This document shows, piece by piece, positions 8,416-11,896 of a stretch of DNA of 41,797 nucleotides (the stretch's first letter is position 1; every line of letters begins with the position of its first letter). Source of the DNA: Magnetospirillum sp. WYHS-4 (lineage in GTDB: Bacteria > Pseudomonadota > Alphaproteobacteria > Rhodospirillales > GLO-3); NCBI GenBank assembly GCA_039908345.1, contig JAMOBD010000020.1, positions 1 through 41,797 on the forward strand, in the 5' to 3' direction. A program made the translations under genes and the position numbers. The notes under the pieces were generated by a model. That model saw only the letters and a program-made list of their open reading frames with translations, made no database searches and was not told the origin of the DNA.

Positions 8416-8963
8416 GGCGGGTCCTCCATCATCATGGCCCGGCAGCCCCAGGTCCAGACATAGGCGGCGCCGGAAACCGCCGTGGTCGCCGCCACGGCGA
8501 GGACCAGGATGCGGGAGACGGCCGTCACCTCGAAGCCGAGACCCACCGCCCCCAGCACCCAGCCGGCGAGAACGATCTGGGCGAAGGTGTTGACCTTGCT
8601 GACCTTGAGGGGCTCGGCCTTCAGGTCGTTGGTCAGGGTCTGGTAGAGAATGGCGCCGCCGACGATCAGCACGTCGCGGAAGACCACCAGGATGACCAGC
8701 CAGATCGGCAAGTGGCCGGTGTAGCCCAGGGTGAGGTAGGCGCAGACCAGCAGGGCCTTGTCGGCCAGGGGGTCGAGGAAGCCGCCGATCACCGTCTCGG
8801 CGTGAAAGCGCTTGGCGATGAAGCCGTCCACCGCATCGCTGACCCCCGCCCCCACGAACACCCAGAAGGCGACGTCGAGCCGCCCGTCCAGGATCAGCCA
8901 GACCAGGATGGGCACGGCGATCAGCCGGCCCAGCGTGATCAGATTGGGAACGGCCTGGATCAC
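8412..8963 (-). CDS. CDP-alcohol phosphatidyltransferase family protein (PgsA-like)
   Basis: A 183-residue integral membrane enzyme with the CDP-alcohol phosphotransferase signature spread over SDAVDGFIAKRF and GGFLDPLADK. That is a D-G-x2-A-x-R-x8/9-G-x3-D-x3-D pattern that binds the divalent metals and CDP. About five membrane segments. It transfers a phosphatidyl group from CDP-diacylglycerol to an alcohol such as glycerol-3-phosphate or phosphatidylglycerol; the acceptor is not decidable from sequence alone. It starts at a GTG (8963) overlapping the stop of the DUF2066 gene (GTGA), in a four-gene coupled operon. Confidence 0.88.
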   Translation of the reverse strand: MIQAVPNLITLGRLIAVPILVWLILDGRLDVAFWVFVGAGVSDAVDGFIAKRFHAETVIGGFLDPLADKALLVCAYLTLGYTGHLPIWLVILVVFRDVLIVGGAILYQTLTNDLKAEPLKVSKVNTFAQIVLAGWVLGAVGLGFEVTAVSRILVLAVAATTAVSGAAYVWTWGCRAMMMEDPP

Positions 8964-10099
8964 GGTCGCGGCGCGGCGGTTCCGCCGCCTCCGCCCAGGA
9001 CCGGAATGCCTGCCGTGGCCGACCGCAGCATCCACTGGTCCCCTTCCAGGGCCAGGGACAGGTCGGACTGCTTCAGTGCCGTCACCAGTTGCTGGGGGTC
9101 GCCCAGATGGTGCAAGGCGATGCGTACCGAGTCCCGCGACATCTGGATCACGTCGATCTGACGGACCACGGCCACGCCTTCCAGGCGGCGCCGCACCTCC
9201 AGCCAATCCTTGAGGCCATTGACCGGAACCATAGCCGGGGTAATGCCCATGGCATCGAAGCGCAGCACGTTGATGCGCTTCCACTCGTCCTGGACCTGGA
9301 CAGCCAGGGCGGACGCCGCGCGCCGTAGCAGGGTGTCGGCATCCTCCCGGCCTTCGGCGGCCAGGCTGATGGACGAACTGGACACCAGCCCGCCCGGCCC
9401 GAAGCGCGAGACGGCGATTTCGACCACCGGCACGCCCTTGCGGGCGTCGGTACGCAAGACGGCGCGCGGCACCAGGGCGCCGGCCGCCTCGTAGCGCTGG
9501 GCCAGGGTCATCAGGGCCTGCGCCTCGCCCTTGTTGGCCCGTTCGACGGAAACCGTCGCGACATCGGCCAGATCGCCGAGCGGAACGACCAGCGGCACCA
9601 GGCCGTCGTGGCTGGGCATGGCCTGCCAGGCAGCCTTCCAGGGATTGGGGGCCTCCCACAGCGTCAGGGGCCCCTGGCCCTGGAACAGGGGCACGACGAC
9701 CAGAGGCTTGCTTTCGGTTTCGGCGAAACCGACCCCCTTGTCGCGCAGCAGCTTGCGTACCGCTTCCGTCTTGAAGCGAAAGACCAGGCGGCCGATGTAG
9801 CGCACCGACGAGGCCTTTTCCTCGGTCACCCCGAAGTCGCTGACCAAGGCCGCCAGTTCGGCCCGCGAAGGCGGCGGGATCTTGGCATGGTCCTCGGCCA
9901 GCACCAGACGGTGAATCAGTTTCGTGAAGGCGAGGGTCTCGGCGGCGGCGTGGGCCTTTTCGCGCGCTTTGGCGGCGGTATCGGCGGTTTCGTCGACCCG
10001 CACGTCCTTGACCTCGTATGGATTGGCGAGGGCGGCGGCGGCGAACGACAACAGGCCGGCAACCAGGAAAAGGCCAGCGAAACAGCGGCGATGGGTCAT
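8960..10099 (-). CDS. DUF2066 domain-containing secreted protein
   Basis: A 379-residue protein with a Sec signal peptide (MTHRRCFAGLFLVAGLLSF..., cleavage probably after AAALA near residue 26) and a periplasmic domain beginning NPYEVKDVRVDETADT. This N-terminus and the position upstream of a CDP-alcohol transferase, PerM and hdaA fit the DUF2066 family of unknown function. The start at 10099 was chosen because the signal peptide begins there; an in-frame ATG at 10186 would add 29 residues overlapping the purM start region. It is the first gene of the operon, divergent from purM across 79 bp. Confidence 0.83.
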   Translation of the reverse strand: MTHRRCFAGLFLVAGLLSFAAAALANPYEVKDVRVDETADTAAKAREKAHAAAETLAFTKLIHRLVLAEDHAKIPPPSRAELAALVSDFGVTEEKASSVRYIGRLVFRFKTEAVRKLLRDKGVGFAETESKPLVVVPLFQGQGPLTLWEAPNPWKAAWQAMPSHDGLVPLVVPLGDLADVATVSVERANKGEAQALMTLAQRYEAAGALVPRAVLRTDARKGVPVVEIAVSRFGPGGLVSSSSISLAAEGREDADTLLRRAASALAVQVQDEWKRINVLRFDAMGITPAMVPVNGLKDWLEVRRRLEGVAVVRQIDVIQMSRDSVRIALHHLGDPQQLVTALKQSDLSLALEGDQWMLRSATAGIPVLGGGGGTAAPRP

Positions 10100-10178
10100 T
10101 GCAATGCGATCCGGATCGGGTATTGTTTCCCCCTCGAAAGCGTGCCCACTGTAGCACGTTCGGCGGGAGGGAAAAGAG

Positions 10179-11246
10179 ATTAGCAAGCTCAGCTACAAGG
10201 ATGCGGGGGTCGACATCGACGCCGGCAATTCGCTGGTCGAGGCGATCAAGCCGCTGGCCCGGTCGACGGACCGCAAGGGCACCATGGGCGGCCTGGGCGG
10301 ATTCGGCGCTTTGTTCGACCTGAGAGCGGCCGGATTCAAGGACCCCATTCTGGTGGCGGGCACCGATGGTGTCGGCACCAAGCTTCGGGTCGCCATCGCC
10401 GCCCGGAAGCACGACACGGTGGGCATCGATCTGGTGGCCATGTGCGTCAACGACTTGGTGGTTCAGGGCGCGGAGCCGCTGTTCTTCCTCGACTACTACG
10501 CCACCGGCCGGCTGGAAGTGGCCGCCGGACGCGACATAGTCGCCGGCATCGCCGAAGGCTGCCGCCAGGCAGGCTGCGCCCTGATCGGCGGCGAGACCGC
10601 CGAGATGCCGGGCATGTACGAAGGCGACGACTACGATCTGGCCGGCTTTGCCGTCGGCGCGGTGGAACGCGAGGCGGTGTTGACCGGCACCCGGGTCCAG
10701 GAAGGCGACATCCTGCTGGGACTGGCATCCAGCGGCCTGCATTCCAACGGCTATTCCCTGGCCCGCAAGGTCGTCGAGGTAACCGGCCTCGATTACGGCC
10801 GCGAAGCGCCCTTCATGCCCGGGCGCAGCCTGGCCGAAGCCTTGCTGGCCCCCACCCGCATCTACGTCAAGCCCTGCCTGGCCGCCATGAAGGCAGGCGG
10901 CGTCAGGGCACTGGCCCACATCACGGGGGGCGGGCTGGTGGAAAACATCCCCCGCGTCATCCCGGCGGGTCTCGCCGTAACTCTGGACGCCAGCCGCTGG
11001 CAGGTGCCGCAGGTCTTCCGCTGGCTGGCCCGCGCCGGCGGCATTCCGCCGTCCGAGATGGAACGCACCTTCAATTGCGGCATCGGCATGGTGGTGGCGG
11101 TCGATCCGGCCCGCGCCCGGGCCCTGGAGACCCTGTTCCGCGAATCCGGCGAAACCTGCGCCGCCGTCGGCCGCATCGTCCGCCAGGAGGAAACCGACGG
11201 CGCCCGGGTGGTGGTCGAAGGCCTGGACGAACAGTGGCACCTCTAG
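10179..11246 (+). CDS. purM: phosphoribosylformylglycinamidine cyclo-ligase, probable ATT start
   Basis: A 355-residue PurM (AIR synthetase), step five of purine biosynthesis; a cytoplasmic homodimer. Signatures are [14 protein letters not shown] at the N-terminus, [13 protein letters not shown], and [11 protein letters not shown]. The frame has no ATG, GTG or TTG between an in-frame TAG at 10152-10154 and the ATG at 10284. Starting at 10284 would delete the conserved [13 protein letters not shown] segment. A strong ribosome site GGGAGG (10165-10170) sits 8 nt before ATT at 10179, which gives the expected N-terminus ([10 protein letters not shown]). ATT is therefore the best start. It overlaps purN by 13 bp. 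Confidence 0.93.
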
Positions 11247-11896
11247 CCAAACTCAAGGTGGCCGTGCTGGTTTCCGGGCGCGGCAGCAACCTGCAGGCCC
11301 TGATCGACGCCTGCGCCGATCCCGCCTACCCGGCTGAGATCGTCCTGGTTCTGGCCAACATCCCCGGCGTCTTCGCCCTGGAACGCGCGGCCAAGGCCGG
11401 CATCCCCACCACCGTGGTAAGCCACAAGGACTACCCGGACCGGACAAGCTTCGAGGCGGCGATGAACGCCCGCCTGGAATCGTCGGGTGCCGGTTTGATC
11501 TGCATGGCCGGCTTCATGCGGCTGCTGACCGACGGCTTCGTGAACGGCTGGCATGATCGCCTGATCAACATCCACCCGTCCCTGCTGCCGGCCTTCAAGG
11601 GCCTGCACGTCCAGGAAGCCGCCCTCCGGGCCGGGGTGCGCTTCTCCGGCTGCACGGTGCATTACGTTCGCCCGGCCATGGACGCGGGTCCCATTCTTGT
11701 CCAAGCGGTGGTGCCCATCCACCAGGATGACGACGCCGACCGCCTGGCGGAACGCATCCTGGAGCAGGAACACGTCATCTACCCCTTGGCCGTCCGTCTG
11801 ATCGCCGAGGGCCGCTGCCGGGTGATCGACGAACGGGTCGTCATCGAAGGCGCCGGGCCGGCGCGGGGGGCGTTGGTCAATCCGGCGGCAGGATAA
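11234..11896 (+). CDS. purN: phosphoribosylglycinamide formyltransferase
   Basis: A 220-residue PurN, which transfers a formyl group from 10-formyl-THF to GAR in purine synthesis. It has the N-terminal phosphate-binding [11 protein letters not shown]. The catalytic Asn-His pair is in [13 protein letters not shown] and the Asp in MDAGPILVQ. The GTG at 11234 lies inside the end of purM (13-bp overlap), indicating coupling. A second in-frame GTG at about 11258 is a possible later start. The transcript would end at the hairpin at 11953-11986. Confidence 0.94.

Follow-up and report, generated by a model that had tools for sequence, protein, structure and literature searches.

Where translation of purM begins is the question raised by the window, that is, the whole 41,797-nucleotide stretch of DNA analysed here. 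The purM frame holds no ATG, GTG or TTG from an in-frame stop, the TAG at 10152-10154, to the ATG at 10284..10286 (forward strand), with which that TAG, as read directly from the sequence, shares its frame. The first-pass annotation had proposed that synthesis starts in between, at an ATT. To our knowledge few bacterial genes are known with an AUU, AUA or AUC start (hereafter AUH), and an open-access literature search found no report of an AUU or AUH start for purM, although absence from that literature carries little weight. Among the papers listed there on ATT, ATC or ATA starts, most concern mitochondria.

The purM locus and its 5' end

Read from the ATT at 10179..10181, purM covers 10179..11246 of the forward strand, ends with the stop TAG at 11244-11246 and encodes a phosphoribosylformylglycinamidine cyclo-ligase of 355 aa. 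The codons that follow the TAG at 10152 are CAC GTT CGG CGG GAG GGA AAA GAG ATT AGC AAG CTC AGC TAC AAG, and direct reading bears out that a canonical start is absent between this TAG and ATG 10284; the ATT is the sole ATH or NTG codon from the in-frame stop to a conserved Tyr. A Shine-Dalgarno (SD) sequence, GGGAGGG, lies at 10165..10171 of the same strand in a conserved G/A-rich stretch and has a predicted duplex energy of -10.8 kcal/mol, computed against an assumed anti-SD sequence. Its GGGAGG (10165-10170) stands 8 nt 5' of the ATT, just as had been noted.

The product read from the ATT matches NCBIfam model TIGR00878 with 452 bits (cut-off 236), over residues 4-335 and model positions 1-331 of 332, an equivalog match that takes in the N-terminus. 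Eleven of 20 matched sequences of PDB PurM chains align from residue 3-5 of the ATT-started protein, which puts conserved residues ahead of ATG 10284. Both alignments agree with the earlier placing of the PurM N-terminus before this ATG. The further claim that the ATT is exactly where homologues begin does not hold for all of them: many gammaproteobacterial homologues have a GTG 3-4 codons upstream.

A start at ATG 10284 or at another internal codon is exceedingly unlikely. This ATG is the first canonical codon in the purM frame, yet initiation there would remove residues conserved with the PDB PurM sequences, the SD sits at the AUU and not at the ATG, and the ATG has no counterpart in the nearest relative (G001), the only other member of the family that was compared. 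On account of the conserved upstream residues and of its absence in G001 it was rejected as a start.

PurM of G001 is 73% identical to that of the window, and the two genomes agree in at least 43 consecutive nt, from the SD through the ATT to the Tyr-Lys codons. A sequencing or assembly error at ATT 10179 could be entertained, the genome being a draft of 172 contigs, but G001 has the same ATT, AUH occurs at this place in many genomes, and two plasmid records of Azospirillum brasilense, both titled complete sequence, have it too. With SD and ATT identical in G001, we take the chance of such an error to be negligible.

Downstream, purN (11234..11896, forward strand; TIGR00639, 239.7 bits) has a GTG start inside purM, the last 13 nt of which (11234-11246) it overlaps; this suggests translational coupling. 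Upstream lies a divergent gene at 8960-10099, and the short gap between the two genes would serve it as well as the putative purM promoter; an NCBIfam search gave no match for this gene at E 0.001. An Rfam search of the window returned no structured-RNA family at the gathering threshold. The RNA fold predicted for 10164-10240 from the window sequence alone has modest stability (z -2.1; 7 of 200 shuffles did as well).

Start codons of purM among relatives

The 5' ends of purM were surveyed at 196 loci, of which two (L118 and L293) were not located, leaving 194 (110 from the order and 84 from the class); because the loci were chosen from the listed best-scoring matches and spread over genera, the counts are not natural frequencies. 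Assignment of the surveyed loci to Alphaproteobacteria follows from named relatives. The named loci L002-L081, 46 of them from outside the Alphaproteobacteria, stand outside the 194, as do L205 and L208 (both ATG) and L218 (a repeat of G113). A 5' end was considered canonical-free when the frame contained no canonical codon from the in-frame stop up to a point three codons ahead of the conserved Tyr; a canonical codon nearer to Tyr, at one or two codons' distance, was disregarded as a start.

Canonical-free 5' ends were found at 57 of the 194 loci, and at 56 of these an AUH codon is preceded by an SD (44 AUU, 8 AUA and 4 AUC; 39 genera, 26 families). Seven of the 57 carry a TTG two codons before Tyr; without these seven, 49 AUH loci in 34 genera and 23 families are left. 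L262 is the one exception, a canonical-free 5' end without any AUH codon. Azospirillum brasilense and A. rugosum have ATC and no canonical codon, Kiloniella majae has ATA with a TTG two codons before Tyr as its only canonical codon, Terasakiella sp. PR1 has ATT with canonical codons absent within 59 codons and some beyond, and Thalassospira profundimaris has ATG.

For the other 137 loci two rules were applied, and single assignments are doubtful at, for instance, L098, L103, L255, L264 and L278. The best SD lies at an AUH in 66 of them by the stricter rule, which counts canonical codons up to 60 codons upstream and uses an energy margin, and in 77 by the looser rule, which looks for canonical codons no further than 30 codons upstream and leaves 60 canonical. 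By the stricter rule 66 of the 194 starts look canonical (47 ATG, 16 TTG, 3 GTG) and 5 to 6 loci, including L262, are unclear. The comparison with relatives that had been advised gave a divided answer: ATT, or AUH more generally, is kept in many, but roughly one in three of the 194 appears to have a canonical start, which makes the AUH start common and not universal. In L116 and L119 an AUG is in place after a similar SD, from which it follows that the AUH start is dispensable. A phylum search added 26 loci, mostly from other families of the class (L345-L370); a canonical codon is available in 24, and one of the two without is a repeat of L311. Near the place of their relatives' ATT, L162 and L163 (G191, G192) as well as L184 and L185 (G314, G316) have a TTG; in G191 and G192 the surrounding ATTG points to a small shift and not to a substitution.

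In a PurM tree of 82 rows, 79 of them scored by the stricter start rule, AUH is spread over the alphaproteobacterial part, and no fewer than 16 switches from AUH to NTG or back are required. Given this number and a weak backbone, the tree does not settle whether AUH is ancestral; in our view an old origin of the purM AUH with repeated loss is likely.

Codon usage and SD strength were compared with those of interior Ile codons. Downstream Ile codons in the canonical-free purM frames are 348 ATC, 89 ATT and 11 ATA, and the start codon is other than ATC in 35 of 39 genera where 11.4 are expected (Fisher p 2.7e-17, a rough value since codons were pooled from related genes). Anchored on the AUH, the profile of the 39 genera reads roughly GAGGAAGCC-AUH-AGC, with a conserved G/A-rich stretch at about -12 to -5. 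The median SD energy at the purM AUH of these genera is -7.1 kcal/mol, where the codon with the best SD energy was taken if several AUH codons were possible, a choice that favours SD strength. The corresponding medians are weaker: -5.85 for the purM ATG starts of 30 genera (p 4e-4) and -2.9 for 330 interior Ile codons (p 7e-20). The stronger SDs at the purM AUH agree with the association between non-AUG starts and stronger SDs described in PMC5622118.

Control genes behave otherwise: in all 30 pyrG genes an ATG stands 3-4 codons ahead of the motif, and a canonical codon lies near the motif in all 29 purD genes located (of 30) and in 27 of the 28 purH genes located (of 30), the remaining one being cut by a contig end. 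As a weaker test, some canonical codon is present in each of 49 purN genes located (of 55). Among the best 80 matches, the 46 purM genes from outside the Alphaproteobacteria all have canonical starts (27 GTG, 16 ATG and 3 TTG).

Judged by these comparisons, the AUH at the purM start is neither an ordinary Ile codon nor a product of chance. The proposal of initiation at ATT 10179 is strengthened by the AUH codons of 39 genera without a usable canonical codon, by the identical sequence in the independent assembly of G001, and by an SD strength and codon usage that differ from those of an interior Ile codon. On comparative grounds we regard initiation at AUU 10179 as highly probable. Conservation of the ATT as operator or promoter DNA, rather than as a codon, would fit the long stretch of identity that the window and G001 share at the start; however, across genera the third base may be U, A or C (the absence of G is built into the definition of AUH and tells nothing here), and conservation peaks at the SD, so that we consider this reading unlikely.

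The leader and other routes of ribosome entry

A -10-like pattern, TANVAY, is found 20-32 nt before the AUH in 24 of 39 genera, with 15 matches exactly at -27, whereas 500 shuffles of the leaders averaged 2.7 and never exceeded 8, the pattern having been picked after viewing the profile and the shuffle being mononucleotide. In the window the possible -10 element is TAGCAC (10152..10157, forward strand), which lies 27 nt before the ATT and contains the in-frame stop TAG. A sigma-70 consensus scan of 10000-10300 yielded no promoter, hence the -10 reading derives solely from the comparative profile. The in-frame TAG at 10152 is perhaps part of the purM promoter -10. The position of the -10-like box would imply a leader of about 13-16 nt and, if so, many upstream canonical codons would be absent from the mRNA. 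The two A. brasilense records both have TATATA at a similar distance; further upstream, L342 has TTGACC and L343 has ATGACC.

Ribosomes could also reach purM by reinitiation or by a frameshift, having started upstream or in another frame. A stop in another frame overlaps the AUH codon in 23 of 39 genera, an NTG mini-ORF ends near the start in 11 and an NTG in some frame occurs within the last 16 nt in 10, all of which would suit such a route. Nevertheless, 28 of the 39 have no such mini-ORF, 29 have no NTG in any frame within the last 16 nt, and the -10-like box at -27 also speaks against it. We deem this entry very unlikely and, despite the 11 genera that do have a mini-ORF, rejected it as a conserved mechanism.

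A proposed weak start and its counterparts in known systems

The best joint explanation, which we hold with good confidence, is that purM has a weak AUU start, discriminated against by initiation factor IF3, that limits PurM and perhaps PurN. The sequences themselves show that a usable canonical start is missing, that an AUH with an SD stands there in many genera and that the N-terminus is homologous; what we infer are the initiation event itself, the short leader, discrimination by IF3, a low yield, coupling to purN and any response to IF3 level. The short purM leader would carry a strong SD that sets the ribosome on AUU 10179, where the initiator fMet-tRNA would pair with a third-position mismatch. 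Such a start would be weak and discriminated against by IF3, keeping PurM synthesis below AUG level, and by the purM-purN overlap PurN synthesis would perhaps be limited too. Many relatives would have retained the weak start as AUU, AUA or AUC.

Discrimination by IF3 against the purM AUU is, from established biochemistry, probable in its own right. Repression of noncanonical starts by IF3, and autoregulation of infC by this means, are described in PMC5472188 and PMC13009471. The latter gives the output of Staphylococcus aureus AUU and AUA starts as about 10% of that of AUG in poor medium, and that of the ccpN start as up to 30% in rich medium. By analogy with published IF3 work, and with the infC AUH of relatives, the annotation's suggestion that translation is sensitive to IF3 level and that purine synthesis could be tuned in this way is plausible.

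The infC genes of relatives (L221-L250) were compared together with that of the window genome (L251). An AUH codon stands 12-15 codons before the motif in 30 of the 31 loci (18 ATA, 11 ATC, 1 ATT). No canonical codon at all is present in 16 of the 31 frames; the other 15 have some, in ten cases no more than 9 codons from the motif, so there the AUH starts of infC are likely and not forced. The one locus without AUH is that of the window genome, where a TTG directly follows an in-frame TAG and appears to be the infC start. Feedback of the infC type may thus have been lost in this genome while purM kept its AUU.

Whether the weak start senses anything is another matter. The AUU might only fix a low and constant dose of PurM and PurN; this is the best explanation without regulation, is compatible with it, and we rate it a little short of an even chance. 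It accounts for a weak start kept with a varying third base without need of a sensor, and the TTG of the window genome's infC agrees with it. Against it, a weaker SD or promoter would suffice for that purpose, yet the SDs at the purM AUH are stronger than those at purM ATG starts. Physiological regulation through the purM AUU is possible and, in our estimate, somewhat doubtful. Still more tentatively, the purM AUH could be an old control of the Alphaproteobacteria that makes purine synthesis (PurM and, through the overlap, PurN) follow translation-initiation capacity, its input being the IF3/ribosome ratio or formylation of the initiator tRNA, for which 10-formyl-THF comes from a pool that also serves PurN.

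Conservation of the AUH in purM suggests that a weak start has been maintained to restrain the enzyme or to tie its production to the protein-making machinery, and the purM AUU opens a possible connection of purine synthesis with the fidelity of initiation to experiment. A central metabolic gene in dozens of genera, in which the third base varies and the weakness stays, constitutes a natural experiment on near-cognate starts. In genomes with AUH the purM N-terminus may be annotated truncated; the two A. brasilense AUH records list no feature at purM.

With no canonical start, a strong SD at proper spacing and conservation in relatives, purM joins, on comparative evidence, the known AUH-start genes, among which it is unusual in gene and breadth. 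The first-pass annotation had named E. coli infC and pcnB as the known AUU examples, which is too narrow a view: PMC5472188 describes a GTC start for Streptomyces sigR, and PMC13009471 starts at AUA for S. aureus infC, ccpN and citZ and at AUU for cvfC1. The AUH start of infC, an ATT in E. coli, an ATC in Streptomyces and an AUA in S. aureus, is shared with purM, but infC encodes the discriminating factor itself whereas PurM is a biosynthetic enzyme. Streptomyces sigR resembles purM in its conserved noncanonical start, strong conserved ribosome binding site and possibly in misannotation; according to PMC5472188 it has GTC in 32 of 34 genomes and GTT in 2, and is repressed by IF3. Its GTC and GTT are confined to one genus, whereas the purM AUH extends over many genera and is predicted to be repressed by IF3. 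The S. aureus genes cvfC1 (AUU), ccpN (AUA) and citZ (AUA) have, according to PMC13009471, a strong SD like purM, and for cvfC1 and ccpN the noncanonical start is conserved; these are other genes of another lineage, and their starts were mapped by ribosome profiling, while that of purM comes from sequence comparison. E. coli pcnB, again a different gene and lineage, is reported to have an AUU start that limits expression (a study cited in PMC13009471), as we propose for purM.
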